Origin: Paracoccaceae bacterium
Lineage (GTDB): Bacteria > Pseudomonadota > Alphaproteobacteria > Rhodobacterales > Rhodobacteraceae
Reading direction: 5' to 3'
NCBI GenBank assembly: GCA_009924775.1
Contig: RFQY01000002.1
Location: 1-44,760, forward strand
DNA: 44,760 nt
Shown: in pieces, positions 8,526-27,160 of the stretch
How positions within the stretch are numbered: position 1 is the stretch's first letter
Layout: each line of letters begins with the position of its first letter
Notes under the pieces: model-generated
Database searches by the model: none
Seen by the model: the letters and a program-made list of their open reading frames with translations, nothing else
What the model was told of the DNA's origin: nothing
Program-made: the position numbers and the translations under genes

Positions 8526-9446
8526 TTAGCTGGGGCTGATGCCGCGCAGCCGCTCGGACCGGCGGCGCAACAGTTCCACCGTTGTCAGCAGCGCAATCGA
8601 GATGATCACCAAAATTGTGGCCACCGACAAAATTGCCGGGCTGATTTGTTCGCGGATACCGTTCCACATTTGGCGGGGGATTGTCTGCTCGTCCAAGCCA
8701 CCCACGAACAGCACCACAACCACCTCGTCGAACGAGGTAACAAATGCAAACAGCGCGCCCGAGATCACGCCGGGCAAAATCAACGGCATTTGCACACGGC
8801 GGAACGTGGTGACAGGATCGGCGCCCAAATTGGCGGCGGCACGCGTCAGCGAATGATCAAACCCCACCAAAGTGGCGGTGACCGTAATGATGACAAAGGG
8901 AATGCCCAAAGTGGCATGCGCCAGCACCACGCCCAAATAGGGAATACCCCAGTCTTGAATGCTGATCGACGAGTAGAAAAAGAACAGCCCCGTGGCCACG
9001 ATGATGATTGGCACGATCATGGGCGAAATCAGAATGGCCATAATGACTCGGCGATAGGGCATTTCCGGGCGGCTTAGGCCAAGGGCTGCAACCGTGCCCA
9101 GCACCGTGGCGATCAAGGTCGAGAAAAAGCCGATGATCACGCTGTTTTTCGCGGCGTTGATCCAGTTGGCATTGGCCCATGCATCGGCCCACCAGCTGGC
9201 GTTGCGGGTGGCGTCTGGGTCGGTCATGCCAAAGGTCAGCAGCAGGTCATACCAGCGCATCGAATAGCCAGTTGGATCCAGCTTCAACATCTTTTCGGTA
9301 AAGGTGAAATACGGCTCGATGTTAAAGCTAAGGGGGATCACCACCAAAATAGGGGCAATCAAGAACAGAAAGATCAGCGCGCAGATCACCAGATAGGTGT
9401 AATGCCAAACGCGTTCTAATGTAGAGGCGTGATTAGGAAGTGCCAT
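8526..9446 (-). CDS. ABC transporter permease, PotC-like (polyamine-type)
   Basis: A 306-residue inner-membrane permease with about six helices, the first at residues 15-38. The cytoplasmic EAA loop that docks onto the ATPase is the segment RAAANLGADPVTTFRRVQMP, near residue 205. The TSFDEVVVVLFVGG stretch is characteristic of PotC/YdcV-type permeases of the spermidine/putrescine family. It is the last gene of a leftward four-gene transporter operon (ATPase, binding protein, permease 1, permease 2), three bases after the preceding permease. The substrate is not fixed by the sequence: many PotABCD-type systems in marine alphaproteobacteria carry other cationic nitrogen compounds. Confidence 0.9.
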   Translation of the reverse strand: MALPNHASTLERVWHYTYLVICALIFLFLIAPILVVIPLSFNIEPYFTFTEKMLKLDPTGYSMRWYDLLLTFGMTDPDATRNASWWADAWANANWINAAKNSVIIGFFSTLIATVLGTVAALGLSRPEMPYRRVIMAILISPMIVPIIIVATGLFFFYSSISIQDWGIPYLGVVLAHATLGIPFVIITVTATLVGFDHSLTRAAANLGADPVTTFRRVQMPLILPGVISGALFAFVTSFDEVVVVLFVGGLDEQTIPRQMWNGIREQISPAILSVATILVIISIALLTTVELLRRRSERLRGISPS

Positions 9447-9449
9447 GGC

Positions 9450-10748
9450 TTACCCCAGTTTCAAATTGTCGATGCCAATCAGGCGGTCGTAGAGCCAATA
9501 CAAGATCAAGATGCCGCCCAGCAGCAGGGCTGCCAAAGCAGCGGCCAGCGACCAGTTCAGCGATTTTTGCATGTGAAAGGCGATAAGGTTCGAGATCAGC
9601 TGCCCATCGGCGCCGCCCACCAAGGCGGGCGTGATGTAATAGCCAACCGCCAAAATGAACACCAGCAAAGCGCCTGCACCAATGCCCGGCACGGTTTGCG
9701 GGAAATAAATGCGGCGGAACGCTGTCCAGCTGGTGGCGCCAAGGCTGCGGGCGGCGCGCACATAAGACGGGTTGATCGGGCGCATCACCGAATAAAGCGG
9801 CAACACCATGAAGGGCAACAGAATATGCGTCATGGCGATCACCGTGCCCATTTGGTTATACATCATCTGCAGGCGGTTCTCGTCGTCCAGCAGGCCCATG
9901 CCCACTAGGCTGTCGTTGACCACGCCTTGGCTTTGCAGCAGCACCATCCAGCTGGTTGTGCGCACCAAAAGCGATGTCCAAAACGGCAACAGAACCAAGA
10001 TCATCAGCAAGTTGGAATAGCGCAGCGGCAAGGTGGCCAGCAGATGGGCAATGGGATAGCCCAACATAAAGGTCAAAACCGTGATCAATATCGACAAAAG
10101 CAGCGTGCGGGAAAACAGCGTAACGTAAACCTGCCGGTTTTCATTGACCTGTTCGATGCTGCCATCTGCATTGCGCGTCAGGTCAAGGGCGGCAAGATAG
10201 AAATTAAACGTATAGGCCGACGAGGCATCGCGCATCACGCGCCACAGATCGGGGTTGTTCCAATCTTTATCCAGATCCAAGAACGCATCCTTAAAGGGTG
10301 CTTCCAGATCGTTGGCCTTGCGCGCGGCCTTGGTAAACATCGAGCGCGAGCCAGACAGCTCGTAGTTAATGCGCGTGCCGGCCTGCCCGGGGGCCTTAAG
10401 TTCGCGCAGCACCACCATATCGGCGGCCAGTGCGGCAAAGGCCTCTTCTGTTGGCTCGGTCCCGGCGGGGTTGGCATCGAACCACGCTTTCAAATTGGTC
10501 ATGATCGGCGTGCGCACGCCGCTGCCAATGTCTTCGTGCATGGTGAAACCGTCGTTATGGAACGAACGGTGCAACATTTGCCCAATGGGCGCCACAAAGG
10601 TGATGACGATGAAGGCCAATAACGGCAACACAAGGAAAAACGCCCTGCGTCGTGCATGCGATTGTGCACTGGCCAAAGCAGCCTTGAGCGGCTTTCCATC
10701 TGCTGTCGTCAGCTTGGCGGGGGCGCCATTTGCTGTTGCGTCGGTCAT
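9450..10748 (-). CDS. ABC transporter permease, PotB-like, with large periplasmic insertion
   Basis: The start is the ATG at 10748 (MTDATANGAPAKL), giving 432 residues, longer than the roughly 280-320 of PotB/PotH. The extra length is a hydrophilic region of about 150 residues between the first helix (FFLVLPLLAFIVITF, near residue 40) and the second (SRTLLLSILITVLTFMLGYP, near 208), probably a periplasmic domain. The rest is standard: LPFWTSLLVRTTSW, and the EAA loop RAARSLGATSWTAFRRIYFP. It pairs with the PotC-like permease and the ATPase encoded upstream. The insertion recurs, as I recall, in a subset of PotB-like permeases and might contact the binding protein. Confidence 0.88.
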   Translation of the reverse strand: MTDATANGAPAKLTTADGKPLKAALASAQSHARRRAFFLVLPLLAFIVITFVAPIGQMLHRSFHNDGFTMHEDIGSGVRTPIMTNLKAWFDANPAGTEPTEEAFAALAADMVVLRELKAPGQAGTRINYELSGSRSMFTKAARKANDLEAPFKDAFLDLDKDWNNPDLWRVMRDASSAYTFNFYLAALDLTRNADGSIEQVNENRQVYVTLFSRTLLLSILITVLTFMLGYPIAHLLATLPLRYSNLLMILVLLPFWTSLLVRTTSWMVLLQSQGVVNDSLVGMGLLDDENRLQMMYNQMGTVIAMTHILLPFMVLPLYSVMRPINPSYVRAARSLGATSWTAFRRIYFPQTVPGIGAGALLVFILAVGYYITPALVGGADGQLISNLIAFHMQKSLNWSLAAALAALLLGGILILYWLYDRLIGIDNLKLG

Positions 10749-10774
10749 TTTTTCTTTACCCTGCTGTCGGTGTG

Positions 10775-10827
10775 GGGTGGGCCATTGGCCCACCCGCTGC
10801 GGTGGTGGGGCCGGTGGTGCCGGCCCC
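10775..10827 (-). terminator. Two tandem strong hairpins between binding-protein and permease genes
   Basis: In the 96-base gap there are two perfect inverted repeats: 10775-10795 with 10-base arms GGGTGGGCCA/TGGCCCACCC around a single base, and 10807-10827 with 8-base arms GGGGCCGG/CCGGCCCC around 5 bases. On the leftward transcript they follow the binding-protein stop. No strong U tract follows, so RNA 3'-end protection or attenuation, keeping binding-protein mRNA above permease mRNA, is more likely than full termination. Confidence 0.6.
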
Positions 10828-10844
10828 GTTTTCCGCACTATCGC

Positions 10845-11918
10845 TTATTGAGCCAGCCAAGCGTTGAAACGCTCGTTCAGCTCGGCGTCTTTATCAACCC
10901 AGAACTCGAAGTTGTTGACCAAAGCGTTGGTCAGGTTCGCGGCTGCGGTGGGCATGTGGGGGGCCATTTCGGTTTTGCCATCCGAATATTTGCCAACCAA
11001 TGCGCCCGACGATTTGCGCGCGGGGCCATACGAGATCCACGAGGCCTGATCAGCCAGGCGCTGCGTGTCGGTCGAGAAAGCGATGAACTGCATCGCGGCG
11101 TCTTTGTTCGGTGCGCCTTTGGGTACAACAAACAGGTCAAAGTCTAGGATCTGACCGTCCCACACCACTTCCAGCGGCTGGTTTTCGGCAACGGCTGCGT
11201 TGAAGATACGGCCGTTATAGGCGGTCGACATCACAACTTCGCCATCGGCCAGCAGCTGCGGCGGCTGTGCGCCGGCTTCCCACCAGACGATATCGCTTTT
11301 GATGCTGTCCAGCTTGGCAAATGCGCGGTCTACGCCTGCGTCAGTGTCCAGAACGTCGTATACTTCGCCGGCGGGCACGCCATCGGCCATCAGCGCCATT
11401 TCCAGCAATGACTTGGCCGATTTACGCAGGCCGCGCTTGCCGGGGAATTTGGCGGTATCGAAGAAATCAGCGATCGTGGTGGGGGTGCCGCTGACGTTTT
11501 TCGAGTTATACGCGTAAACGGTGGACCACACGATGTTGGCAACGGCGCAATCTTGCAGCGCGCCTTCGATGAAGTCTTCGGTTGCGGGGGTGCCATCGGG
11601 TGCTGCGGGCAGCATGGCGTGGTCGATCGGCTCTAGCAGGCCTTCATCGCACAGGCGTACCGCATCCGAGAATTCCACGTCGGCCACGTCGATCGAAACA
11701 TTGCCCGCCTCGACCTGTGCTTTGATCGGGGTTGCGGGGTTGTCGGCGTCGACCGAGTTGACCTTGATGTTGGTGGTTGCGGTAAAGGGCTTGTGATAGG
11801 CCTCTACCTGGCTTTTGGTATAGGCACCGCCCCAGGACATAACGGTGATTTCCTGCGCTTGCGCAGCAAACGCAACACCAGTCAGGGCTGTCGCCATCAG
11901 AGCTGTTTTGAGTTTCAT
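10845..11918 (-). CDS. Polyamine-type ABC transporter substrate-binding protein
   Basis: A 357-residue periplasmic protein. The signal peptide (MKLKTALMATALTGVAFAAQ) probably ends with AQA before QEITVMSWGGAY at residue 23. The mature part follows the PotD/PotF (SBP family 1) plan: the first strand ITVMSWGGAYTKSQ, DVADVEFSDAVRLCDEGLLE, WSTVYAYNSK, and WWEAGAQPPQLLADGEVVMS for the second lobe. The binding residues differ from classical PotF, so the ligand may not be putrescine. GGGAGT upstream of the ATG at 11918 is a good ribosome-binding site. It is the second gene of the leftward transporter operon. Confidence 0.9.
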   Translation of the reverse strand: MKLKTALMATALTGVAFAAQAQEITVMSWGGAYTKSQVEAYHKPFTATTNIKVNSVDADNPATPIKAQVEAGNVSIDVADVEFSDAVRLCDEGLLEPIDHAMLPAAPDGTPATEDFIEGALQDCAVANIVWSTVYAYNSKNVSGTPTTIADFFDTAKFPGKRGLRKSAKSLLEMALMADGVPAGEVYDVLDTDAGVDRAFAKLDSIKSDIVWWEAGAQPPQLLADGEVVMSTAYNGRIFNAAVAENQPLEVVWDGQILDFDLFVVPKGAPNKDAAMQFIAFSTDTQRLADQASWISYGPARKSSGALVGKYSDGKTEMAPHMPTAAANLTNALVNNFEFWVDKDAELNERFNAWLAQ

Positions 11919-11997
11919 TTCATACTCCCAAATGTACCCGTATTTTCAATTGGCGGAGGGCAGCGTGACGGGCAGACCATCTACCCTCCTGAAACGA

Positions 11998-12019
11998 CCG
12001 TGCCCCGCTGGGGGCACGG
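11998..12019 (-). terminator. GC-rich hairpin between ATPase and binding-protein genes
   Basis: CCGTGCCCC (11998-12006) and GGGGCACGG (12011-12019) are perfect 9-base arms with a 4-base loop. On the leftward transcript it follows the ATPase stop and precedes the binding-protein ribosome site by about 70 bases. Without a strong U run it is probably an attenuator or processing site. Confidence 0.5.
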
Positions 12020-12033
12020 CTGTTCTTTGGCCG

Positions 12034-13155
12034 TTACGCATCAAGCGCGCGGCAATCCTGTGGCAACCAGCCAATGTCGATCTGGGTGCCGGGCGTCATC
12101 CGCACCTGATCGGGCGCGTTGCGGGTTTTTACGATAAATTCCTCGTTGCCGGCCACACGCAGGCGGGTGCGGAAAATATCGCCCATATAGATGAATTCCA
12201 GCACCTCGGCCTTTAGCGTATGGGCGCCGGGCTGCAGGCGGGCCGGGTTGACCTCGACACGCTCGGGGCGGATAGAAACGCAGGTGCGTTCGCCCACTTT
12301 CGATACGTTCACGGGCTTGGCATCGATCACTTCGCCATTGTCCAGCTTGACCTCGCACAGATCGCCCTTGATCGCGGTGATCACGCCGTTCAGCGTGTTA
12401 TTTTCACCGATAAACTGGGCAACAAAGCTGTTTTGCGGGGTTTCATACAGCTGGTCTGGGGGCGCCAATTGCTGGATCACACCATCGTTGAACACGGCAA
12501 CCCTGTCGGACATGGTCAGCGCTTCGGTTTGGTCGTGGGTTACGTAAACCGTGGTGATGCCCAGTTCGTGCGCCAAGCGGGTAATCTCGAACTGCATGTG
12601 TTCGCGCAGCTGTTTGTCCAGCGCGCCCAGCGGTTCGTCCATCAGCACCAGCTCTGGCTCGAACACCAAGGCGCGGGCAAGGGCGATACGCTGCTGCTGA
12701 CCACCCGACAATTGCGCGGGGCGGCGATTGGCAAACTGGCCCATCTGCACCATGTCCAGCGCCCGCTTGATTTTTTCCTCGCGGGTCGATTTGGCGATTC
12801 CGCGCACCTCTAACGGGAAGCTTAGGTTTTCGCCAACCGTCATATGCGGAAACAGCGCATAGCTTTGGAACACCATGCCAATGCCGCGCTTGTGCGGCGG
12901 GATATTGTTGATCGGACGCTCGTCCAACAAAATCTCGCCATGGGTAGCTGTTTCAAAGCCAGCCAGCATCATCAGGCAGGTGGTTTTACCCGAACCCGAC
13001 GGGCCAAGCATGGTCAAAAACTCGCCACGCGGCAGGGTCAGGTTAAGGTCTTTAACGACCAGCGTTTCGCCGTCGTAACTTTTCTGAACGCGGTCAAACA
13101 CCACGAACGCGTCGTCGTTCTTTCCGTTGGCCAAGGTGGCTCCCCGTTTTATCAT
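12034..13155 (-). CDS. ABC transporter ATP-binding protein, PotA-like
   Basis: A 373-residue ATPase with all nucleotide-binding motifs: Walker A LGPSGSGKTT (near residue 51), Q-loop FQSYALFPHM, signature LSGGQQQR, Walker B LVLMDEPLGALD, and the H-loop THDQTEALT. The C-terminal third is a TOBE regulatory domain (ISIRPERVEV-type segment). The start is ambiguous. The ATG at 13155 has a 14-base hairpin (GCGGG-CGTA-CCCGC, 13158-13171) where its ribosome site would be, whereas a TTG at 13134 has GGGGAG five bases upstream. Either way the first gene of the leftward transporter operon energises the two permeases. Confidence 0.92.
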   Translation of the reverse strand: MIKRGATLANGKNDDAFVVFDRVQKSYDGETLVVKDLNLTLPRGEFLTMLGPSGSGKTTCLMMLAGFETATHGEILLDERPINNIPPHKRGIGMVFQSYALFPHMTVGENLSFPLEVRGIAKSTREEKIKRALDMVQMGQFANRRPAQLSGGQQQRIALARALVFEPELVLMDEPLGALDKQLREHMQFEITRLAHELGITTVYVTHDQTEALTMSDRVAVFNDGVIQQLAPPDQLYETPQNSFVAQFIGENNTLNGVITAIKGDLCEVKLDNGEVIDAKPVNVSKVGERTCVSIRPERVEVNPARLQPGAHTLKAEVLEFIYMGDIFRTRLRVAGNEEFIVKTRNAPDQVRMTPGTQIDIGWLPQDCRALDA

Positions 13156-13455
13156 ATGCGGGCGTACCCGCCTCTTATCCGCCCCTGACTAAACCGACTC
13201 TTGCTTTGTCATGCAATACGCATGCGTCGTTTTCGGCGTGAATTGCGCCAAATTCGGGAACAAAGCCCAAAACTTGGGTCAATCAGCGGGCAATTGCCCG
13301 TGGATTCGCGCCAAATGGGCGATTCACCTTATGCGCAGGGGGCTGTGGCGGCGTTTTGGATGGAAAACCGCAGCAATCTTGCGTCAAAAAGTGTCGTTTC
13401 CGAAATGTCACGGCGCCTTGGGCTTTGCCAATCTATGGGCAAACAGGAGGCCCGA
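13156..13455. promoter_or_regulatory. Divergent control region between the ABC transporter and doeA
   Basis: The 300 bases carry no gene I can support. They contain a perfect 14-base palindrome CGGGCAATTGCCCG (13287-13300), a small dyad CCCAA-AAC-TTGGG (13266-13278), and a perfect 10-base inverted pair CAAAGCCCAA (13261-13270) / TTGGGCTTTG (13418-13427). These are candidate regulator sites for one or both divergent units. A strong ribosome site, CAGGAGG (13444-13450), serves doeA. I could not identify convincing promoter hexamers. Confidence 0.45.
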
Positions 13456-14640
13456 ATGCAAAATCCCGACATCCCTTTTTCGCGTGCGGAATATGACCGG
13501 CGCATCGCCGCCACGCGCCAGGCCATGGCCAAAGCCGGGCTTGATGTGCTGTTTGTGACAGACCCATCCAACATGGCATGGCTGACGGCCTATGACGGCT
13601 GGTCGTTTTACGTGCACCAAGGCGTGATCTTGCGCATGCACGGCGATCCGGTGTGGTGGGGTCGTGGGATGGACGCCAATGGCGCGCGCCGCACCACATG
13701 GCTGGGCGCTGATGATATCCGCCCCTACACCGACAACTATGTGCAATCCACCGAGCGCCACCCGATGCAGCATTTGGCGCAGCTTTTGGCGGAATATGGC
13801 GCCGCGACCCAGCGCATTGGCGTTGAGATGGAGAATTATTATTACTCTGCCAAAGCGCATGAAACCCTGTGCGCCAGCCTGCCCGAAGCCCAGATCGTGG
13901 ACGCCACCGCGCTGGTGAATTGGCAGCGCCTGATCAAATCCGACGAAGAAATCGCCTTTATGCGCCGCGCCGCCCGCATTGCCGAGAAAATGGTAGATGG
14001 CGCGCTGGAACGCGCCCGCCCCGGCCTGCGTAAAAACGAGCTGGTGGCCGAGATTTACCGCGATTCGCTGCTGGGCGTGGGCGCGGATTGGGGCGATTAC
14101 CCGGCCATTGTGCCCATGTGCCCCTCGGGGGCCGATGCCAGCGCGCCCCACCTTACCTGGAATGGCCAAGAGATGCGCCAAGATGAATGCACGTTTTTCG
14201 AATTGGCCGGCGTGTATCGGCGCTATCACACGCCGTTTTGCCGCACCGTTTGGCTGGGCACCCCCCCAGACGAGGTAAAGCGCGCCGAAGCCGCCCTGAT
14301 CGAGGGGCTAGAGGCCGGGCTGCAAGCCGCCCGTGCGGGCAACCGGGCGTGCGATATTGCCAATGCGCTGGGCGATGTGTTGACGCGCGCGGGCATCGAA
14401 CGGGGCGCGCGCTGTGGCTACCCCATCGGCCTGTCTTACCCGCCCGATTGGGGCGAGCGCACGGTGTCTTTGCGCGCCGAGGATGAAACCGTGCTGCAGC
14501 CGGGCATGACATTTCATTTCATGCCGGGGCTATGGATGCAGGATTGGGGTTTGGAAATTACCGAATCCATCTTGATCACGGCCGAAGGCCCGGCAGAAAC
14601 CTTTTGCAACCGGCCCCGGCAGCTGTTTGTGAAACCTTAA
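13456..14640 (+). CDS. doeA: Ectoine hydrolase (M24/creatinase-type)
   Basis: The start is fixed by CAGGAGG just before the ATG at 13456, giving 394 residues, the usual length for DoeA/EutD. The fold is pita-bread: an N-terminal creatinase domain (VTDPSNMAWLTAYDGWSFYV, GRGMDANGARRTTWL, YVQSTERHPM, GVEMENYYYSAKAH) and a C-terminal M24 domain (GDYPAIVPMCPSGADASAPH, YRRYHTPFCRTVWLG, YPIGLSYPPDWGERT, FHFMPGLWMQDWGLEITES). These stretches match my memory of ectoine hydrolases from Halomonas and marine Rhodobacteraceae, which open the ectoine ring to acetyl-diaminobutyrate. The usual partners (DoeB deacetylase, TRAP transporter, EnuR regulator) are not in the window. The nearest transporter is the divergent polyamine-type system. 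Confidence 0.8.
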   Translation: MQNPDIPFSRAEYDRRIAATRQAMAKAGLDVLFVTDPSNMAWLTAYDGWSFYVHQGVILRMHGDPVWWGRGMDANGARRTTWLGADDIRPYTDNYVQSTERHPMQHLAQLLAEYGAATQRIGVEMENYYYSAKAHETLCASLPEAQIVDATALVNWQRLIKSDEEIAFMRRAARIAEKMVDGALERARPGLRKNELVAEIYRDSLLGVGADWGDYPAIVPMCPSGADASAPHLTWNGQEMRQDECTFFELAGVYRRYHTPFCRTVWLGTPPDEVKRAEAALIEGLEAGLQAARAGNRACDIANALGDVLTRAGIERGARCGYPIGLSYPPDWGERTVSLRAEDETVLQPGMTFHFMPGLWMQDWGLEITESILITAEGPAETFCNRPRQLFVKP

Positions 14641-14691: not shown

Positions 14692-16089
14692 CTAGCTGGC
14701 CGCCTGCCAAAGCCCTGCATCTTTCACCTGTGCCATCGCCTCGTCCAGCGACTGGCGGGCGCGGGCGATCAAAATATCCACCTCGTCGCGGGTGATCACC
14801 AAAGGTGGGCTGATAATCATGCGGTCGTATACATGGCGCATGACCAGATTATTGGCAAAGCAGCGCTCGCGCACCATGTAGCCAACGGTGCCTGCCTCGG
14901 CGGCAAATTTTGCGCGGCTTTCCTTGTGCGGGGTCAGCGCGATCGAGCCCATCATGCCCACGATCTTGGCCTCGCCCACCATTGGGTGATCTACCAGCGA
15001 TTCCCATTGCTGTTTCAAATAGGGGCCAATATCGGTGCTGACATAGTCAACCAACCGTTCCTCTTGCATGATGGTCAGGTTTTCCAGCGCCACGGCGGCG
15101 GCCACGGGATGGGCGTTATAGGTATAGCCGTGGTTGAATTCGCACGCTGCCATCACCTGCGCGATCTTGTCCGACACGATCGAGCCGCCAATCGGCTGGT
15201 AGCCCGAGGACAGCCCCTTGGCGATGGTCATAATATCTGGGGCCCAGCCCACGGTTTGGCTGCCAAACCAATTGCCGGTGCGCCCAAAGCCGCAAATCAC
15301 CTCGTCGGCAATCAGTAAGATGTTGTATTTGTTGCAAATACGCTGAATTTCAGGCCAGTATGTTTCAGGCGGCACAATCACGCCACCGGCGCCCTGCACA
15401 GGTTCGGCGATAAAGGCGGCAACCCTGTCTTCGCCCAGCTTTTCGATGGCCAATTCCAATTGGCGCGCGCGTTCCAGCCCAAATTCGGCCGGGTCTGTCT
15501 GGCCGCCTTCGGCCCACCAATTTGGCTGGTCGATATGATAGATATCGGGGATGGGCAGGCCACCTTGGGCATGCATGCCCCCCATGCCGCCCAAGCTGGC
15601 CCCACCCAAGGTAGAGCCGTGATAGGCGTTTTTGCGGCTGATGATGATGTTTTTCTGCGGCTTGCCCATTTCCGCCCAATAGGTGCGCACCATGCGAATA
15701 TTGGTGTCATTCGCCTCGGAACCCGAGCCTGCGTAAAACACATGGTTCAGATCGCCCGGCGCCAATTCGGCCAGCTTGGCCGACAGGGCGATGGCGGGCA
15801 CATGGGTGGTCATGAAAAAAGTGTTATAATAGGGCAGTTCGCGCATTTGCCGCGCGGCCACATCGGCCAGCCGATCGCGGCCATAGCCGACGTTCACGCA
15901 CCAAAGCCCGGCCATACCATCCAAAATCTGGTGGCCTTCACTGTCGTGGATCCACACGCCATTGGCGCGCGTTATCACCCGTGCACCGCGCTGGGCCAGC
16001 GTGTTTTGGGTGGAAAACGGGTGCATGTGGTGGGCTGCGTCCAATGCCTGCAATTCTGCGGTGGGCATATGGTTGGAAATATCGCGCAT
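14692..16089 (-). CDS. spuC: Class III aminotransferase, putrescine:pyruvate (SpuC) type
   Basis: The start at 16089 (MRDISNHMPTAEL) has a GAGG site and gives 465 residues; an upstream ATG at 16143 lacks one. It is a fold-type I PLP enzyme: AGLWCVNVGYGRDRLADVAA, YAGSGSEANDTNIRMVRTYW, KNAYHGST, FIAEPVQGAGGVIVPPETYW, LIADEVICGFGRTGNWFG, and the PLP lysine in IMTIAKGLSSGYQPIGG. The resemblance to Pseudomonas SpuC, which converts putrescine plus pyruvate to 4-aminobutanal plus alanine, is close along its whole length. A related role on diaminobutyrate (DoeD-like) cannot be excluded, since doeA is the convergent neighbour. It lies downstream of gntR in the same direction but has its own promoter. 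Confidence 0.8.
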   Translation of the reverse strand: MRDISNHMPTAELQALDAAHHMHPFSTQNTLAQRGARVITRANGVWIHDSEGHQILDGMAGLWCVNVGYGRDRLADVAARQMRELPYYNTFFMTTHVPAIALSAKLAELAPGDLNHVFYAGSGSEANDTNIRMVRTYWAEMGKPQKNIIISRKNAYHGSTLGGASLGGMGGMHAQGGLPIPDIYHIDQPNWWAEGGQTDPAEFGLERARQLELAIEKLGEDRVAAFIAEPVQGAGGVIVPPETYWPEIQRICNKYNILLIADEVICGFGRTGNWFGSQTVGWAPDIMTIAKGLSSGYQPIGGSIVSDKIAQVMAACEFNHGYTYNAHPVAAAVALENLTIMQEERLVDYVSTDIGPYLKQQWESLVDHPMVGEAKIVGMMGSIALTPHKESRAKFAAEAGTVGYMVRERCFANNLVMRHVYDRMIISPPLVITRDEVDILIARARQSLDEAMAQVKDAGLWQAAS

Positions 16090-16176
16090 GGCGGCCTCGG
16101 CGTTATGGAAATGCCCCGCCCGCGCCCCGCACAGCTGTGGCATGGGGCCGGGATGGGGGCCGGAATGGGTGGCCCA

Positions 16177-16204
16177 AGAATATGATCAAATGTCTGCTTG
16201 TCAA
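16177..16204 (-). promoter_or_regulatory. Promoter with overlapping candidate GntR operator upstream of spuC
   Basis: On the leftward strand, TTGACA (16199-16204) and TATTCT (16177-16182) are spaced by 16 bases, a strong sigma-70-type promoter. A 12-base near-palindrome, ATTTGATCATAT, lies at 16180-16191 across the spacer and -10. The same sequence in reverse orientation occurs upstream of potF. A repressor bound here would block polymerase. Confidence 0.6.
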
Positions 16205-16209
16205 TCGAA

Positions 16210-16917
16210 TCAGCCGCGTTGGCCGGGGCTTTCCAGAATGTGGCGGATCTGTTCCATGCCCTGCAGCATATCTTCGCGCATGGCGCGCGCCGCCCCCTCG
16301 GCATCGCCGGTGCGCATGCAGGCCAGCAGGTCTTTGTGTTTGTCGGGCTGGTTCTGGGTGCCGATACGGCCAATCATAACCCGCAGCGATGGGCCAAAGC
16401 GCAGCCACAGCCCCTCGGCCATATTGGCCAGAACGGGGGCATCGGCCAAGGCATAGATCTTGGCATGAAACAGGTAGTTATGGCGCAGATAGGCATGCAA
16501 TTCGCCCCGCGCGATGGCCTGATCAAGCCGCTGGTCAATCAGCGCCAGTTCCGCCAAATCGCCGGCTTGGGCATTTTGTGTGGCCCGCAGCGCAAGGTGG
16601 CTTTCCAGCCATTGGCGGGCAAAAATAATTTCCCCAACATGGCTGGGCTGTAGCTGTGGCACCGTCACGCGGCGGTTGCCTTGAAACTGCAGGGCGCCTT
16701 CGGCGATCAGGCGGCGAATGGCCTCGCGCACCGGGGTCATTCCGGCGCCCAAACGCAGGCACAGGCCTTGGATTGTCACGGCTTCGCCGGGCGCGATTTC
16801 GCCAAACAAGATTTGGTCGCGCAGCTGGCGATAGATCAGTTCGTGGGCGGGCAGGCCAGCGGCACTGGCGGGGGGCGTGGCCCTTTCAGTGCCGGGTTTT
16901 TGGGCTGGAATGCTCAT
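16210..16917 (-). CDS. GntR family transcriptional regulator, FCD (FadR-type) domain
   Basis: A 235-residue regulator. Residues about 25-85 form the winged helix-turn-helix (LIYRQLRDQILFGEIAPGEA, then GMTPVREAIRRLIAEGALQF, typical of GntR). Residues about 95-230 form an all-helical FCD ligand domain (HNYLFHAKIYALADAPVLA, MRTGDAEGAARAMREDM), with histidines that often hold a metal ion or acid ligand. It sits between spuC (same strand, downstream) and potF (divergent). Matching near-palindromes in both flanking gaps suggest it controls the polyamine module, probably as a repressor relieved by an intermediate. The ligand is unknown. Confidence 0.88.
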   Translation of the reverse strand: MSIPAQKPGTERATPPASAAGLPAHELIYRQLRDQILFGEIAPGEAVTIQGLCLRLGAGMTPVREAIRRLIAEGALQFQGNRRVTVPQLQPSHVGEIIFARQWLESHLALRATQNAQAGDLAELALIDQRLDQAIARGELHAYLRHNYLFHAKIYALADAPVLANMAEGLWLRFGPSLRVMIGRIGTQNQPDKHKDLLACMRTGDAEGAARAMREDMLQGMEQIRHILESPGQRG

Positions 16918-16986
16918 CTAACGTGAAATCCTTTGCGCGCTTTCTGCCATCTCTTGTCAGTTTAGCGGTGTCGTGAAAACATTACC

Positions 16987-17018
16987 ATATTGCCCGCATG
17001 GGCGGGATATGATCAAAT
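16987..17018 (+). promoter_or_regulatory. Candidate GntR operator and dyads between gntR and potF
   Basis: ATATGATCAAAT at 17007-17018 is the reverse complement of the site before spuC. It contains TATGAT (17008-17013), a possible -10 for potF. Immediately upstream, 16987-17010 is an imperfect inverted repeat with ATAT ends and a CCCGC/GCGGG core. I could not assign a clean -35. Confidence 0.5.
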
Positions 17019-17059: not shown

Positions 17060-18148
17060 ATGATGACACATCGCTTCCTTTCACTAACGGCTGCGGCTGC
17101 GCTTTTGGCAAGTGCCGCAACCGCAGAGGAGGTTCGCGTCTATAACTGGTCTGATTATATCGACGAAGCGCTGCTGGAAAAATTCGAAGCAGAAACCGGT
17201 ATCGACCTGATCTATGACGTATTCGACAGTAACGAAGTTTTGGAAACCAAGCTGCTGGCTGGCGGTTCGGGCTATGATGTTGTGGTGCCAACAGGCAGCT
17301 TCTTGCAGCGTCAAATTCAGGCTGGTGTGTTTCAGAAACTAGACACCAGCAAACTGACCAACATGGGCAATATGTGGGACGTGATCCAAGACCGCACCGC
17401 GCGGTTCGACCCCGACAATGCCTATTCGGTGAACTACATGTGGGGCACCACCGGCATTGGCGTGAACACCGCCAAAGTGGCCGAAGTGCTGGGCGAGGGC
17501 GCGCCGGTGGATTCGCTGGCGCTGATCTTTGATCCCGCCAATATGGAAAAACTGCAGGCCTGTGGCGTGCACATGCTGGATGCCCCAGACGAGGTGGTGC
17601 CCGCCGCGCTGACCTATCTGGGCCTTGATCCCAACACCCAAGAGGCCGATGATCTGGCCAAAGCAGAAGCGCTGCTGATGTCTGTGCGCCCCTATGTGCA
17701 GAAATTCCACAGCTCGGAATATATCAACGCGCTGGCCAATGGCGATATCTGCGTGGCCTTGGGCTGGTCTGGCGATATTTTGCAGGCGCGCGACCGTGCG
17801 GCCGAGGCCGAGAATGGCGTGGAAATTGCCTATAACGCCCCCAAAGAAGGTGCCTTGATGTGGTTCGACCAAATGGCCGTGCCCGCCGATGCGCCAAACC
17901 CGGATGCTGCGCATAAATTCATTAACTTTATCATGGATGCGCAAAACATGGCTGCGGCGTCGAACTACGTGTATTACGCCAATGGCAACAAGGCCAGCCA
18001 AGCGTTTTTGGCCGAAGATGTCATCGGCGATCCGGCCATTTACCCCACAGCCGAAGCGCTGGCCAACACCTATATCAAGGGCCCCTATCCGCCCAAAGTG
18101 CAGCGTGTTGTCACCCGCCTGTGGACCAAGGTTAAATCGGGTATCTAA
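17060..18148 (+). CDS. potF: Putrescine/polyamine ABC transporter substrate-binding protein PotF
   Basis: A 362-residue periplasmic protein starting at the ATG at 17060 behind GGGAGA. The signal peptide ends near ATA-EEVRVYNWSDYID. Residues matching PotF ligand contacts are visible: Ser-Asp in NWSDYID, the Trp and Asp in LGWSGDILQARDR, the Asp in MWFDQMAVP, and a Tyr in NYVYYANGN. These aromatic and acidic residues clamp the diamine, so putrescine or a longer polyamine is the likely cargo. It heads the potFGHI operon and is followed by a strong terminator-like hairpin, which would favour high binding-protein expression. Confidence 0.9.
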   Translation: MMTHRFLSLTAAAALLASAATAEEVRVYNWSDYIDEALLEKFEAETGIDLIYDVFDSNEVLETKLLAGGSGYDVVVPTGSFLQRQIQAGVFQKLDTSKLTNMGNMWDVIQDRTARFDPDNAYSVNYMWGTTGIGVNTAKVAEVLGEGAPVDSLALIFDPANMEKLQACGVHMLDAPDEVVPAALTYLGLDPNTQEADDLAKAEALLMSVRPYVQKFHSSEYINALANGDICVALGWSGDILQARDRAAEAENGVEIAYNAPKEGALMWFDQMAVPADAPNPDAAHKFINFIMDAQNMAAASNYVYYANGNKASQAFLAEDVIGDPAIYPTAEALANTYIKGPYPPKVQRVVTRLWTKVKSGI

Positions 18149-18207: not shown

Positions 18208-19338
18208 ATGGCACAAACGGTTTTCGCGCCTTGGGATAACCCCGATGAAAAGCCGCTGATCCAATTCAAGAATGTTACCAAGCGGTTTGGCGATTTCACG
18301 GCAATCGACAACCTGACCCAAGATATTTACACGCGCGAGTTTTTTGCGCTGCTGGGGCCCTCGGGCTGTGGCAAAACCACGATGATGCGCATGCTGGCGG
18401 GGTTTGAAAACCCCAGCGAAGGGCAGATCTTGATCGCGGGCCAAGATATGGCGGGCGTGCCCCCCAATAAGCGGCCCGTGAACATGATGTTTCAATCCTA
18501 TGCGCTGTTTCCGCACCTGTCCGTGTGGGACAATATCGCCTTTGGCCTGCGCCGCGAGGGGGCTGAAAAAACCCAGCTGGCCGCGCGCGTGGAACAGATG
18601 TTGAAACTGACCCGGCTAGAACGTTTTGCGCGCCGCAAGCCGCACCAAATTTCGGGTGGCCAACGCCAGCGCGTGGCCTTGGCGCGCAGCCTTGCCAAAG
18701 CGCCAAAGCTGCTGCTGTTAGACGAGCCGTTGGGCGCGTTGGATAAAAAACTGCGCCAAGATACGCAGTTTGAGCTGATGGATATTCAGGAAAAAACCGG
18801 CACCACCTTTGTGATTGTCACCCACGACCAAGAAGAAGCCATGACCGTGGCCAGCCGCGTGGCTGTGATGGACGAGGGCCGTATCATGCAAGTGGCCACG
18901 CCCGCGGTGATCTACGAACAGCCCAATTCCGTCTATGTGGCTGATTTCATTGGCGATGTGAACATCATCGAAGGTGCCGCCACCCCGCACCCGCAAGCCG
19001 ATGGATACAGCGTGGCATGGGCCGAGGGGCAGCCGCAGTTTCACGCAAAAACCAACCGCAGTTTTGCACCGGGGCAAAAATGCTTTTTGGCGCTACGCCC
19101 CGAAAAAGTGGCTATTTCCGCTGAACCGCCCGAAGAGGCGGCCAACCGCATTCAGGGTAAAATTATCGATATCGCCTATTTGGGCAACATCTCTACCTAT
19201 CATGTGCGCCTGCCGAACGGGACGATGATGAAGGCCCAAACCGCCAACACCCGCCGCCTGTCGCGCCGCAGCCTGACATGGGAAGATGCGGTTTGGCTAA
19301 GCTGGACAGACACGGCCGCCGCCGTGCTAGAGGGCTAG
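18208..19338 (+). CDS. potG: Putrescine ABC transporter ATPase PotG
   Basis: A 376-residue ABC ATPase. Motifs in order: Walker A LGPSGCGKTT (near residue 51), Q-loop MFQSYALFPHL, signature ISGGQRQRVALARSL, Walker B LLLLDEPLGALD, switch THDQEEAMT, then a C-terminal TOBE domain (FLALRPEKVAISAE). It energises PotHI with PotF as receptor. Four bases separate its stop from potH. GGCAGG precedes the ATG at 18208. Confidence 0.92.
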   Translation: MAQTVFAPWDNPDEKPLIQFKNVTKRFGDFTAIDNLTQDIYTREFFALLGPSGCGKTTMMRMLAGFENPSEGQILIAGQDMAGVPPNKRPVNMMFQSYALFPHLSVWDNIAFGLRREGAEKTQLAARVEQMLKLTRLERFARRKPHQISGGQRQRVALARSLAKAPKLLLLDEPLGALDKKLRQDTQFELMDIQEKTGTTFVIVTHDQEEAMTVASRVAVMDEGRIMQVATPAVIYEQPNSVYVADFIGDVNIIEGAATPHPQADGYSVAWAEGQPQFHAKTNRSFAPGQKCFLALRPEKVAISAEPPEEAANRIQGKIIDIAYLGNISTYHVRLPNGTMMKAQTANTRRLSRRSLTWEDAVWLSWTDTAAAVLEG

Positions 19339-19342
19339 GCAC

Positions 19343-20233
19343 ATGCGGCGCGCTTTGCTGATTGCAGTTCCTTATCTTTGGTTGCTGGCGCTGTTTTTGG
19401 TGCCGTTTCTGATTGTGCTGAAAATCAGCCTGTCCGATACCGCTCTGGCCATTCCACCCTATCTGCCCACGCTCGATTTTACCGAAGGCTGGGCAGGCAT
19501 TTGGGGGTTTCTGCAAGAGCTTGATTTTGAAAACTTCACCTTCCTCACCCAAGACGAGCTGTATTGGCGCGCCTATCTGTCTTCGGTGCAAATTGCGCTG
19601 ATTTCCACGGTGCTGACGTTGCTGGTGGGCTATCCTATTGCCTATGGCATGGCCAGCGCGCCCGAACATTGGCGTGCCACGCTGATGATGCTGGTGATCT
19701 TGCCGTTTTGGACCAGTTTCTTGATCCGCGTCTATTCGTGGATGGGGATTTTGTCGAACGAAGGGTTGTTGAACCAGCTTCTGCAAGGGCTGGGGCTGAT
19801 CGACCAGCCGCTGATCATTTTGAACACCAACACAGCCGTTTATATTGGCATCGTCTATACCTACCTGCCCTTTATGATTTTGCCGATTTATGCGGCGCTG
19901 GAAAAAATGGATGCGGCCCTGCTGGAGGCGGCCGAAGATTTGGGCTGCTCGCGGCTCACGGCCTTTTGGCTGGTGACTGTGCCGCTGTCGCGCCAAGGCA
20001 TTATTGCCGGGTGCTTTTTGGTGTTTATCCCGGCGCTGGGCGAATTTGTTATTCCATCGCTTTTGGGCGGTTCAGGCACGCTGATGATTGGCAAGGTGCT
20101 GTGGGAAGAGTTTTTCAATAACCGCGATTGGCCCGTGGCCTCGGCGGTGGCGGTGATTTTGCTGCTGATCTTGATCATTCCCATCATTTTGTTTCAGCGC
20201 AACGAGCAAAAACAACGCGAGCGCGAGGGCTAA
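19343..20233 (+). CDS. potH: Putrescine ABC transporter permease PotH
   Basis: A 296-residue permease with six predicted helices, the first at residues 3-24 (AVPYLWLLALFLVPFLIVLK). It has the PotH/PotB features LPFWTSFLIRVYSWMGIL and an EAA loop EAAEDLGCSRLTAFWLVTVP before PLSRQGIIAG, and LGEFVIPSLLGG near residue 230. It forms the heterodimeric membrane channel with PotI. Spacing to both neighbours is 2-4 bases, so it is co-transcribed with potG and potI. Confidence 0.92.
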   Translation: MRRALLIAVPYLWLLALFLVPFLIVLKISLSDTALAIPPYLPTLDFTEGWAGIWGFLQELDFENFTFLTQDELYWRAYLSSVQIALISTVLTLLVGYPIAYGMASAPEHWRATLMMLVILPFWTSFLIRVYSWMGILSNEGLLNQLLQGLGLIDQPLIILNTNTAVYIGIVYTYLPFMILPIYAALEKMDAALLEAAEDLGCSRLTAFWLVTVPLSRQGIIAGCFLVFIPALGEFVIPSLLGGSGTLMIGKVLWEEFFNNRDWPVASAVAVILLLILIIPIILFQRNEQKQREREG

Positions 20234-20235
20234 TC

Positions 20236-21054
20236 ATGCGGCGCTTTACATGGTTCAACGCTACCTCCCTGACGCTTGGCTTCGTCTTTTTGTACCTGCC
20301 CATGGTTATCTTGGTGATCTACAGTTTCAATGCCTCGAAACTGGTCACTGTTTGGGCCGGGTTTTCCACCCGCTGGTATGGCGAATTGCTGGGAAACCAG
20401 GCCTTTCTTGATGCGGCATGGGTGACGCTGAAAGTTGCGGTTGCATCCTCTACCTTGGCCACGGTTTTGGGCACGATGGCGGCCTATGTTTTGGTGCGCA
20501 GCGGGCGTTTTGCCGGGCGCACATTGTTTTCTGGCATGATCTACGCGCCTTTGGTGATGCCCGAGGTAATTACAGGCCTGTCGCTGCTGCTGTTGTTCAT
20601 TGGCATAGGGCTGGATCGTGGCGTTCTAACCATCATCTTGGCCCACACAACCTTTGCCATGTGCTATGTCTCGGTGGTGGTGTCATCGCGCTTGGTAAGC
20701 TTTGATCGCTCGCTGGAAGAGGCGGCGCTGGATCTGGGCTGCACGCCTTTTACGGCCTTTCGCCTTGTGACCCTGCCGATCATCGCGCCGGCGGTTGTGT
20801 CGGGCTGGCTGCTGGCCTTTACCCTGTCGCTGGATGATCTGGTGATTGCCTCGTTTACCGCCGGGCCTTCGGCCACCACCTTGCCTATCAAGATTTTCTC
20901 GGCGGTGCGGCTGGGGGTAAGCCCAGAGATTAACGCGCTATCTACCCTCATGATCGCCATCGTTACGGTGGGGGTTATTACTGCCTCGCTGATATCAAAG
21001 CGCGCCAGTCTGGCCCAGCAGCGCGATGCGCAGGCTGCCGCGCGGGCGCAATGA
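20236..21054 (+). CDS. potI: Putrescine ABC transporter permease PotI
   Basis: The ATG at 20236 (MRRFTWFNATSLTLGF) lies two bases after the potH stop and gives 272 residues. Six helices are predicted. The EAA loop is EEAALDLGCTPFTAFRLVTL, and AFTLSLDDLVIASFTAGP is the PotI/PotC signature. It completes the PotFGHI transporter. Its stop overlaps the start of the FAD oxidoreductase by four bases, which ties transport and oxidation of the substrate into one transcript. Confidence 0.92.
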   Translation: MRRFTWFNATSLTLGFVFLYLPMVILVIYSFNASKLVTVWAGFSTRWYGELLGNQAFLDAAWVTLKVAVASSTLATVLGTMAAYVLVRSGRFAGRTLFSGMIYAPLVMPEVITGLSLLLLFIGIGLDRGVLTIILAHTTFAMCYVSVVVSSRLVSFDRSLEEAALDLGCTPFTAFRLVTLPIIAPAVVSGWLLAFTLSLDDLVIASFTAGPSATTLPIKIFSAVRLGVSPEINALSTLMIAIVTVGVITASLISKRASLAQQRDAQAAARAQ

Positions 21055-22382
21055 GGCGTATCTTTGGCGCCCATGCCTATGGGCCGGGGCCAGTTCAGCA
21101 GAATTTCTGGGCCAGCACCGTGCCCGATGCGCAATTGGCCTGCCCTGCGTGGGCGGGCAATGGCCGGGCCGATGTGGTGGTGGTTGGGGCCGGGTTCACC
21201 GGGCTGTCGGCGGCCCTGGCGCTGGCCCAGGCTGGGGCCGATGTTGTGGTGCTGGATGCGGGGCACCCGGGCTGGGGTGCATCTGGGCGCAATGGCGGGT
21301 TTTGCTGTTTGGGGGGCGCCAAGGCCAGCGCCGGGCAAATTGCCGCGCGCATAGGCGCCGAAGGTTTGGCCGAATGGCAGCGCAGCGAACGCCGCGCCAT
21401 CGATACGGTGGCAGCACTGTTGCAGGCCCATCAGATCGATGCCGATTGCCATTCGCAGGGGGAAACCCTGCTGGCCCACAGCCCACGCGCAATGGCGCAG
21501 ATTGTGGCAGGCGTGGGCGATGTGGCCCGGGCCTATGGCGTGGCGCCAGTGCTGCATGACAGGGCCGAATTGGCCGGTTTGGGCATGAATGGCCCGTTTC
21601 ATGGTGGCATGACGCTGCCCTTGGGTTTTGCATTGAACCCGCGCAAATACCTGCTGGGCCTGCTGCGGGCGGCCCAACAGGCCGGCGCCCGGGTTTTTGG
21701 GGGCAGCCCCGTGCAGCGGATAGACAGCGACAGCACCGGCCACAGCCTGCATCTGCCCCAAGGCAGTTTGCAGGCGCGGCGGCTGGTTTTGGCCACCAAT
21801 GGCTATGCCTCGGAAGATGTGCCACCGTGGATGGCCGCGCGCTATATGCCTGCGCAATCGAATGTGCTGGTGACGCGGAAATTAACCGCACACGAGCAGC
21901 AAGTCGCAGGCTGGTACAGCGCGCAAATGGCCTTTGATAGCCGCCATTTGCTGCATTATTTCCGCCTGATGCCCGATGGCCGGTTTCTGTTTGGGCGCCG
22001 TGGCGGGCTGTTGTCCTCGGCGCGCGCCGACCGGGCTGCGGCGGCTGTTACAGAACGCCATTTTCGCGCCATGTTTCCCGCATGGGCCCATGTAGAGGTG
22101 CCTTGGGGCTGGTCTGGCATGGTGTGCCTAAGCGCGCATTTGCTGCCCTATTGCGGCCCGGTGCCCGGTATCGGGCAGGCTTGGGCCGGGTTTGCCTACC
22201 ATGGCAATGGCGTGGCGATGGGCAGTTTCACCGGCCAGTTGCTGGCCGGTCTGGTGTTGGGCCGGCCCAGTGCCGTGCCAAAGGCCATGCAGATCGTGCC
22301 CCCGCGGTTTGCCCTTGGGCGGTTGCGGCGTGTGTGGATGCCCTTTGTCTATGCCGGCGCTGCCTTGGCGGATCTGCGCTGA
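21051..22382 (+). CDS. FAD-dependent oxidoreductase, PuuB-like (amine oxidase, DAO family)
   Basis: A 443-residue DAO-family flavoprotein, translationally coupled to potI (ATGA). The FAD dinucleotide fold is VVVVGAGFTGLSAALALAQA near residue 42, with WGASGRNGG near residue 75. The C-terminal FAD region is YHGNGVAMGSFTGQLLAGLV. The family includes gamma-glutamylputrescine oxidase (PuuB) and its relatives, which fits the transporter context. No gamma-glutamylputrescine synthetase (PuuA) gene is in the window, so the substrate could be a free or modified amine. A D-amino-acid-type activity is the alternative. Confidence 0.82.
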   Translation: MRRIFGAHAYGPGPVQQNFWASTVPDAQLACPAWAGNGRADVVVVGAGFTGLSAALALAQAGADVVVLDAGHPGWGASGRNGGFCCLGGAKASAGQIAARIGAEGLAEWQRSERRAIDTVAALLQAHQIDADCHSQGETLLAHSPRAMAQIVAGVGDVARAYGVAPVLHDRAELAGLGMNGPFHGGMTLPLGFALNPRKYLLGLLRAAQQAGARVFGGSPVQRIDSDSTGHSLHLPQGSLQARRLVLATNGYASEDVPPWMAARYMPAQSNVLVTRKLTAHEQQVAGWYSAQMAFDSRHLLHYFRLMPDGRFLFGRRGGLLSSARADRAAAAVTERHFRAMFPAWAHVEVPWGWSGMVCLSAHLLPYCGPVPGIGQAWAGFAYHGNGVAMGSFTGQLLAGLVLGRPSAVPKAMQIVPPRFALGRLRRVWMPFVYAGAALADLR

Positions 22383-24976: not shown

Positions 24977-27160
24977 ATGCTGCCTGACATACCCCTAACC
25001 CGCGATCTGGTGTTGGTGGGCGGTGGCCATACCCATGCACTGGTATTGCGGATGTGGGCCATGCGCCCGCTGCCCGGTGTGCGGCTGACGGTGATCAACC
25101 CGGGGCCCACAGCGCCCTATTCGGGGATGTTGCCGGGCCATATCGCGGGCCATTACAGCCGCGATCAGTTGGATATTGATCTGGTGCAATTGGCCCGCGC
25201 TGCCGGGGCGCGGCTGATATTGGGCCGGGCCTGCGGCCTCGATCGGGGGGCAAAGCAGGTGCTGCTGCAGGGCCAGCCGCCGGTGGGGTATGACGTGGCC
25301 TCGATCGATATTGGGATCACCGCCGAAATGCCGCAAATGCCCGGGTTTCAGCAGCACGCCGTGCCCGTCAAGCCGCTGGATCGCTATGCCGAGGCGTGGC
25401 AGCTGTTTCTGGCCGATGTGGCAGCAGGCCGCCGCCCCCCCAGCGTGGCGGTGATTGGCGGTGGTATTGCGGGGGCCGAATTGGCCATGGCCATGGCCCA
25501 TGCGCTGCGCGGCCTTGGGGCAGACCCGCACATTACCGTTTTCGAACGTGGGCAGGCATTGGCCGGTGTTCCGCGCCGCACCAGCCGCCACCTACAGATG
25601 GAAATGACTGCGCAAGGCGTGCAGCTTCGGGTGGGCAGCGGTGTGGCGCAGGTGGTGGCCGGCGCGGTGCAGTTGCCAGATGGCAGTCAGCATAGTGCCG
25701 GGTTCATTCTGGGGGCTGCGGGGGCGGTGCCGCACCCTTGGGTGGCCAGCACCGACCTGCCGCAAACCGATGGGTTTATCAGCGTGGATACCCATTTGCA
25801 GGTTGTGGGCGACACCAGCGTTTTTGCCGTGGGCGATTGCGCCAGCATTCAGGGCCACCCACGGCCAAAGGCGGGGGTTTTCGCCGTGCGCGCCGCACCG
25901 TTTTTGTTTCAGAACCTGCGCGCCGCCTTGGGCGCCGGGCGCATGCGCCGCTTTGTGCCGCAACGTGATTATCTGAAACTGGTGTCGCTGGGCGGCAAAC
26001 GTGCCTTGGCCGAAAAGCTGGGCGTGGCGCTAAAGGGGCGGTGGCTGTGGGCGTGGAAAAACCGCATCGACACGCGGTTCATGGCGCAGCTGTCTGATAT
26101 GCCGGCCATGGCCCACGCGGCCGCACCGGCAGATATGGCGCAAGGCGTGGCAGAGATGCTGCAAGAAAAGCCGCTGTGCGGGGGCTGCGGGGCCAAGGTG
26201 GGCCATGGTGTGCTGGGGCAGGCGCTGGCCGGGCTGCACCAGCCACCCCGCGCCGATGTTCTGGCAGGCCCCGGCGATGATGCGGCGGTGCTGCGTGTTG
26301 GCGGCGAAACCCAAGTGCTGACCACCGACCATTTGCGCGCTTTTGTCCATGATCCGCGGCAAATGGCCCAAATTACCGCCGTGCACGCGCTGGGCGATAT
26401 ATGGGCGATGGGGGCGCGCCCGCAGGCCGTGCTGGCGCAGATCGTGCTGCCGCGCATGGCCCCCGCGCTACAGGCCCGCAGCCTGACCGAGATCATGCAA
26501 GCCGCCGGTGCCATTTTTGCCGGCGAAGGCGCGCAGATCGTGGGGGGGCACACCACCATGGGCGCCGAGCTGACGATAGGTTTTTCCATCACCGGCCTGA
26601 TGCCACAGGGCCAGCCTGCCCTTACCATCGCGGGCGCGAAGGCGGGCGATATGCTGCTGCTGACCCGGCCCATTGGCACCGGCACGATTTTGGCAGCCCA
26701 TATGCAAGGGGCGGCGCCCGGCCGCGATGTGGCCCAGATGCTGGCCGAAATGGCCCAGCCGCAGGGCCAAGCCGCCGCGCTGCTGCGCCCGGTGGCCCAT
26801 GCCATGACCGATGTAACGGGCTTTGGCCTTGCTGGCCATTTGGGGCAAATCTGCCGCGCCTCGGGGGTATCGGCGCAGCTGCGTTTGGGGCAGATCCCGT
26901 TTTACCACGGCGCGGTTGCGCTGGCGGTTGCGGGGCATCATTCGGCCCTAATGCAGGCAAATATGGCTGCCATGCCGGTGTTTGGCCCCGATGGCCCGCA
27001 CACCCGCCTGCTGTATGACCCGCAAACCGCAGGTGGGTTATTGGCGGCAGTGCCCCAGCCCCATGCCGATAGGGTTTTGGCCGCCCTGCAACAGGCGGGC
27101 ATTGGGGCGGCGATTATTGGCCAGCTATCTGCCGGGCCAGTCTCTATTTCCCTGCAATAG
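24977..27160 (+). CDS. selD: Selenide, water dikinase fused to an NADH-dehydrogenase-like flavoprotein domain
   Basis: A 727-residue fusion. Residues 1-375 are a pyridine-nucleotide-disulfide oxidoreductase domain resembling type II NADH dehydrogenase: LVLVGGGHTHALVLRMW at the N-terminus, a second dinucleotide fold VAVIGGGIAGAELAMAMAHA near residue 158, and VFAVGDCASI near 285. Residues about 390-727 are SelD: CGGCGAKVG (catalytic Cys/Lys), PGDDAAVL, LTTDHLRAF, HALGDIWAMGARP, GGHTTMGAEL and DVTGFGLAGHLG. SelD makes selenophosphate from selenide and ATP; the flavoprotein half probably supplies or tunes selenide redox chemistry. The fusion is known in several bacteria. It overlaps mnmH tail to tail by 17 bases. 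Confidence 0.92.
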   Translation: MLPDIPLTRDLVLVGGGHTHALVLRMWAMRPLPGVRLTVINPGPTAPYSGMLPGHIAGHYSRDQLDIDLVQLARAAGARLILGRACGLDRGAKQVLLQGQPPVGYDVASIDIGITAEMPQMPGFQQHAVPVKPLDRYAEAWQLFLADVAAGRRPPSVAVIGGGIAGAELAMAMAHALRGLGADPHITVFERGQALAGVPRRTSRHLQMEMTAQGVQLRVGSGVAQVVAGAVQLPDGSQHSAGFILGAAGAVPHPWVASTDLPQTDGFISVDTHLQVVGDTSVFAVGDCASIQGHPRPKAGVFAVRAAPFLFQNLRAALGAGRMRRFVPQRDYLKLVSLGGKRALAEKLGVALKGRWLWAWKNRIDTRFMAQLSDMPAMAHAAAPADMAQGVAEMLQEKPLCGGCGAKVGHGVLGQALAGLHQPPRADVLAGPGDDAAVLRVGGETQVLTTDHLRAFVHDPRQMAQITAVHALGDIWAMGARPQAVLAQIVLPRMAPALQARSLTEIMQAAGAIFAGEGAQIVGGHTTMGAELTIGFSITGLMPQGQPALTIAGAKAGDMLLLTRPIGTGTILAAHMQGAAPGRDVAQMLAEMAQPQGQAAALLRPVAHAMTDVTGFGLAGHLGQICRASGVSAQLRLGQIPFYHGAVALAVAGHHSALMQANMAAMPVFGPDGPHTRLLYDPQTAGGLLAAVPQPHADRVLAALQQAGIGAAIIGQLSAGPVSISLQ

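Follow-up and report, generated by a model that had tools for sequence, protein, structure and literature searches.

Results

The gene gntR, which encodes the proposed regulator, lies between spuC on its own strand and the divergent potFGHI genes, within a window (the whole stretch of DNA analysed, 44,760 nucleotides of a Paracoccaceae bacterium, contig RFQY01000002.1 of assembly GCA_009924775.1) whose relevant features are as follows:

14692..16143, minus strand: spuC, class-III aminotransferase (NF005682, 755 bits, cut-off 510; PF00202)
16177..16182, minus strand: -10 element of spuC, TATTCT, overlapping candidate operator 1 (promoter scan)
16180..16191: candidate operator 1, ATATGATCAAAT / ATTTGATCATAT, exact match, in the spuC promoter within the 66-base spuC-gntR gap
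16199..16204, minus strand: -35 element of spuC, TTGACA (promoter scan)
16210..16917, minus strand: gntR, 235 aa, GntR winged helix-turn-helix plus FCD domain, proposed regulator (PF00392 and PF07729)
16990..16995, plus strand: possible -35 element of potF, TTGCCC (placed by inference; the consensus promoter scan gave no match)
17007..17018: candidate operator 2, ATATGATCAAAT, exact match, in the 142-base divergent gntR-potF gap
17060..18148, plus strand: potF, periplasmic binding protein (best NCBIfam match PotF, 450.8 bits, under its cut-off of 636)
18208..19338, plus strand: potG, ABC ATPase (TIGR01187, 394 bits, cut-off 355.6; best match PotG, 445.7 bits, under 613)
19343..20233, plus strand: potH, permease (best match PotH, 395.8 bits, under the cut-off of 489)
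20230..21054, plus strand: potI, permease (best match PotI, 333.9 bits, under the cut-off of 476)
21051..22382, plus strand: FAD-dependent oxidoreductase of the DAO family (PF01266, 186.4 bits), sharing 4 bases with the end of potI

The spuC product is a probable polyamine transaminase, and the DAO-family gene probably closes the pot operon. The window also encodes an ectoine hydrolase DoeA-like protein (13201-14640; 584.3 bits, under its cut-off of 613) and a 727-aa fusion (24977-27160) of a pyridine-nucleotide-disulphide oxidoreductase part with an AIR-synthase-type part that is SelD-like by eye.

The preliminary description of this DNA reported identical 12-mers on both sides of gntR, and both matches are indeed exact, with gntR sitting between them and each copy in a flanking gap. 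It had also placed them in opposite orientation; both copies are in fact on the plus strand, and they are opposed only relative to the genes that they precede, spuC (minus) and potF (plus). Because the motif is nearly palindromic, ATATGATCAAAT being part of the near-palindrome ATWTGATCAWAT and its complement differing from it at 2 of 12 positions, orientation carries little meaning here. Their description as a pair holds insofar as there are two candidate operators and fails insofar as it would have them act on each other, no sign of looping being found in the window. Near-matches elsewhere do fall in coding sequence, as had been noted: one two-mismatch copy (13146-13157) overlaps the start of the ABC ATPase gene 12034-13155, which belongs to a second polyamine/opine-type transporter set (8526-13155, minus strand) without an exact operator, and another (39673-39684) falls within the gene for a 346-aa oxidoreductase. 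Several relatives (e.g., L020 and L023) also have a two-mismatch copy, ATTCGATCAACT, within the potF coding sequence at a constant position about 360 bases after its start, where it probably reflects conserved codons. The genome scan that had been proposed for further copies returned 6 exact occurrences of ATWTGATCAWAT in the organism's own genome (G000), against about 0.35 expected by a simple independence estimate from 1417 TGATCA sites and the window base composition that ignores AT-rich gaps.

The promoter scan recovered the same TTGACA and TATTCT elements, separated by a 16-base spacer and reading towards spuC, within which operator 1 had been placed. The geometry is nearly fixed across relatives: in the named loci described below, TTGAC starts 13 bases ahead of the operator in 77 of 79 spuC promoters and 14 bases ahead in the other 2, and the -10 element is TATTCT in 61 of 79. 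On the potF side, 52 of the 76 named loci have TTGC exactly 17 bases ahead of operator 2; given a 17-base spacer, the 3' half of operator 2, TCAAAT (17013-17018), would then serve as the potF -10 element.

Six relatives (G037, G028, G022, G077, G111, and G021; loci L305, L306, L307, L310, L303, and L085, respectively) have two operators before spuC, one of them often with a mismatch, at a spacing of 28-29 bases or approximately three helical turns; cooperative binding is possible at such sites. In six loci (L028, L032, L033, L035, L046, and L159), an extra one-mismatch site lies near the first aligned GntR residues, possibly reflecting autoregulation or simply coding sequence.

The gntR product has both features that define the FadR (FCD) subfamily: an N-terminal GntR winged helix-turn-helix (PF00392, 47.6 bits, cut-off 27) and a C-terminal all-helical FCD domain (PF07729, 72.8 bits, cut-off 24.3). 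Its AlphaFold model (mean pLDDT 85.3) has helices from residue 91 to 229, and a fold search with this model gave matches to FCD structures. These are the only domains in the 235-aa protein, in which neither the aminotransferase-like sensor domain of MocR/GabR nor a PuuR-like XRE-type DNA-binding domain was found. Its closest NCBIfam model is the PRK11414 equivalog (NF008504), which we take to represent the McbR group; the protein scores 105.5 of the 225 bits set for it. Metal-dependent FCD sensors typically bind metal through Asp-His-His-His ligands, although this set does not define all FCD proteins. When aligned by eye with 7u5q, the positions that we take to be those usually holding metal read N147, H151, H194, and D216, and all four are invariant in the 11 aligned orthologues; because they read N-H-H-D, metal use by this GntR may differ from that of typical FCD sensors.

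Among 120 genomes of the family, the orthologue search gave a close set (at least 45% identity) covering at least 63 genomes; many genomes also have weaker matches, at 34-42% identity, that we took as paralogues, the border being our own choice. The preliminary description had staked its proposal on the motif lying near orthologous gntR genes, and nearly all of the orthologous loci examined do carry it. Three partly overlapping collections of loci were scored. In the 30 best, spuC is adjacent in 28, with the spuC-side site in 28/28 (27 exact, 1 with one mismatch), and the potF-side site has at most one mismatch in 29/30 and two in the remaining locus. A second collection, of 27 loci, has the spuC-side site in 27/27 and a potF-side site of at most one mismatch in 25/27. 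The 80 named loci, the best 80 of a larger number, come from Ruegeria, Phaeobacter, Leisingera, Roseovarius, Shimia, and others; omitting 1 locus without an adjacent spuC and 4 without an adjacent potF, the spuC-side site is present in 79/79 (78 exact, 1 with one mismatch) and the potF-side site in 74/76 with at most one mismatch, the other 2 having two. A strain of R. pomeroyi (L234) has the gntR locus with both sites conserved. Even among distant orthologues (43-54% identical), at least one site of at most one mismatch lies beside gntR in 20 of 21. In one relative (G078) there is no site beside gntR, and neither spuC nor potF is there. Beyond the family no orthologue was found: of 289 genomes from the class, searched with at most 9 candidates scored per genome, 4 have a match at E ≤1e-45, all from this same family.

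In some distant relatives the place of spuC behind gntR is taken by another gene, a glutamine synthetase homologue in G121, G007, G013, and G054 and a PuuB-like gene in G115 (loci L294, L295, L296, L299, and L297), and the operator is retained before the replacing gene with 0, 1, 2, 0, and 0 mismatches in G121, G007, G013, G054, and G115, respectively.

Across 80 genomes, the exact motif was present in 41 of 42 with an orthologue of the regulator versus 8 of 38 without (Fisher p 1.4e-13, kinship ignored). One of these 8 (G021) holds a cut-off gntR beside spuC, leaving seven regulator-negative genomes with the exact motif (G008, G033, G032, G014, G029, G045, and G059). Site surroundings were inspected in the first five of these, and none of their 14 sites lay next to the reference proteins tested, save for a weak ABC ATPase match (33%) in G029. 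A spuC homologue is present in 10 of the 38 regulator-negative genomes; G021 excepted, a site of at most one mismatch was found before it in 0 of 9, and in G029 and G068 a copy with two mismatches lies there.

One of the six exact sites in G000 lies upstream of a glutamine synthetase homologue on contig 424, unlinked to gntR, which we call puuA-like; its score of 203.7 bits is under the 650 required for gamma-glutamylputrescine synthetase, so that its substrate can only be guessed at. Among the 30 genomes with the highest scores, 19/19 with the regulator and 0/11 without have the site before this gene. Over 51 genomes the figures were 26/32 versus 0/19 (Fisher p 3.7e-9, kinship ignored), and with six genomes added they became 28/34 and 0/23. 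The puuA-like homologue occurs in 58 genomes, of which the last 7 added were G009 and G056 (regulator-positive, exact site), G032, G074, G001, and G045 (regulator-negative, no site before the gene), and G021, whose copy starts at a contig edge and was left out of the count. In the 6 of 34 regulator-positive genomes with no site at their best puuA-like gene, that homologue is at most 66% identical. Within the closest clade of puuA-like proteins, the regulator-negative G068 (a genome only 76% complete), G030, G051, and G026 are without the site, and near neighbours have it.

On the puuA-like protein tree (51 rows), the regulator state changes at least 7 times, 5 of these changes being forced by well supported branches. 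Among 5 independent pairs on such branches, the site tracks the regulator in 2-4 and is the same in the rest, which is too few for significance; no sampled pair has the site running against the regulator. The pairing scored G070 as lacking the site owing to a misplaced start, which is corrected in the 51-genome count.

The remaining exact sites in G000, besides the two in the window, lie before a HisP-like transporter gene, before a second class-III aminotransferase gene, and in a gap between a TetR-family and a peptidase-M20-type gene. The HisP-like amino-acid transporter gene (site at C424:5575) is in the same cluster as the puuA-like gene, together with a second glutamine synthetase homologue and a DAO-family oxidoreductase that we call PuuB-like from family and setting only. 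Of 17 regulator-positive regions upstream of the puuA-like gene, one (G077) is without a HisP homologue and in another (G020) HisP is cut by the region end; upstream of HisP in the other 15, a site of at most one mismatch was found in 0, with two-mismatch sites in G010 and G028. Of the 42 regulator-positive genomes, 7 gave a match for the second aminotransferase, with the site in 3 of these 7. A conserved wider regulon comprising all six exact sites was thus rejected, the HisP-like and second-aminotransferase sites being poorly conserved. The site on contig 113 (C113:12770; exact ATTTGATCATAT at L004 1501-1512) is likewise not conserved, being absent from the exact sites of the congener G041. 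It lies between the TetR-family gene and the peptidase-M20-type (amidohydrolase-like) gene, and it comes after a dihydroorotate-dehydrogenase/ferredoxin gene. Because the adjacent TetR-family product has a C-terminal domain of YcdC type (PF08362), and YcdC is, we take it, RutR, this site may belong to a RutR-type TetR regulator. Of 16 further one-mismatch sites in the genome, most lie inside long reading frames as judged by eye, and none was seen before a recognisable polyamine gene when the list of open reading frames was inspected.

Discussion

We consider it very probable that both sites are operators of the FCD-type GntR encoded between them, which would repress the core promoters and be released by a polyamine or an early breakdown product. 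The sequences compared show directly where the sites lie, how they are positioned in relation to the spuC promoter, how well they are conserved, and that they accompany the regulator. What ties the motif to this protein in particular is that site and regulator occur together where the gene concerned is unlinked. The same gene bears on the extent of the regulon, which the preliminary description had taken to be local: a regulon it appears to be, the sites being conserved at orthologous loci, but a local-only regulon must be rejected because the unlinked puuA-like gene bears a site and belongs to the conserved core. That core, as read from the genomes compared, consists of spuC, potF, and the puuA-like gene, and would link uptake (potFGHI) to transamination (spuC) and probably to glutamylation.

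We infer from these features that GntR binds the sites and that it represses rather than activates, and likewise which effector it senses and which substrates the enzymes use in this organism. GntR, presumably as a dimer, would sit on ATWTGATCAWAT at the core promoters and block RNA polymerase: at spuC the operator lies between the -35 and -10 elements, at potFGHI it lies at the possible -10 element, and at the puuA-like gene it lies just after a possible -10 element (read by eye). We favour repression because the bound protein would cover these promoters. A polyamine or an early breakdown product would then release GntR, so that uptake by PotFGHI, transamination by SpuC, and probably gamma-glutamylation by the PuuA-like protein would be switched on. 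In Ruegeria pomeroyi, PotFGHI serves putrescine, cadaverine, and spermidine, as mutants show (PMC10130141), and an effector common to all three would for this reason be attractive.

One could instead envision GntR as an activator or dual regulator rather than a simple repressor, which we regard as improbable. The sign of regulation is unreadable from sequence, and the two sites 28-29 bases apart before spuC in six relatives could serve other geometries; however, the spuC operator lies both between and over the core elements of the promoter, always 13-14 bases from TTGAC (79/79 loci), which points to a polymerase block. Less probable still is that the motif serves another regulator, such as the second FCD-type GntR in the same genome (at C347), and that gntR merely adjoins it. 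FCD regulators can have similar operators, and a paralogue 34-42% identical to GntR occurs, among the matches listed, in many of the genomes searched. Yet in four genomes without the orthologue (G051, G026, G068, and G030), where a second match of this kind is present at E 5.5e-49 to 5.1e-39, no site lies before the puuA-like gene, and the surroundings of the paralogue in G000 (6001 bases, L051) are without a site of at most one mismatch. A chance repeat, or a common core-promoter sequence serving no regulatory protein, has a negligible probability in our judgement, for although AT-rich promoter DNA gives short repeats (a common 9-mer arose in 318 of 5,000 shuffles), shuffling the 66- and 142-base gaps with dinucleotides preserved gave a common 12-mer in only 22 of 20,000 trials, the motif is conserved at nearly all orthologous loci examined, and the site at the unlinked gene tracks the presence of the regulator.

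Repression by the FCD-type GntR from these operators would fit a wider proposal, which we put forward tentatively and doubt slightly more than we credit: that a Rhodobacteraceae-specific FCD repressor whose metal site is altered (N-H-H-D) serves as the shared polyamine sensor for uptake and for both putrescine breakdown routes, acting through one operator, and that this operator stayed in place while the gene behind it was swapped between spuC, for transamination, and glutamine-synthetase- or PuuB-like genes, for glutamylation.

Known regulators resemble this system in part. E. coli McbR (YncC) of the FadR subfamily is the nearest solved structure in the sequence-profile search (4p9f, 2.1e-32) as well as in the fold search (TM-score 0.80, query length), but at 29% identity over the fold alignment McbR is only a structural neighbour. 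Agrobacterium Atu1419 (VanR), an FCD-type repressor of the same fold and family, was solved with palindromic DNA according to PDB titles; it is 21-23% identical to GntR in fold alignments and serves another pathway. Putrescine breakdown genes (puu) are repressed in E. coli by PuuR, and in Comamonadaceae the MocR-type GabR regulons have puuA, puuD, and a putative putrescine transporter among their members (PMC5320631). PuuR thus also controls putrescine breakdown but belongs to the XRE family, and GabR likewise has a GntR-type DNA-binding domain but an aminotransferase-like sensor, as the same source describes them, in contrast to the GntR/FCD protein here. No description of this regulator, operator, or regulon was found among the best matches in the open literature. 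The regulon of an FCD-type GntR with spuC, potF, and puuA-like targets thus appears to be new.

In the sea, polyamines supply labile nitrogen, and bacteria of the Roseobacter group consume them. The operators described here probably let marine Roseobacter-type bacteria switch on the uptake and breakdown of putrescine-like compounds. In R. pomeroyi, expression of the polyamine transporter has been taken to indicate polyamine leakage from dying phytoplankton (PMC10130141). We equate that transporter locus, SPO3466-3469, with the potFGHI locus here on the basis of the name potFGHI and of the conservation of the locus in a different R. pomeroyi strain. The proposed regulator, operator, and target set would tell what this transporter signal responds to.
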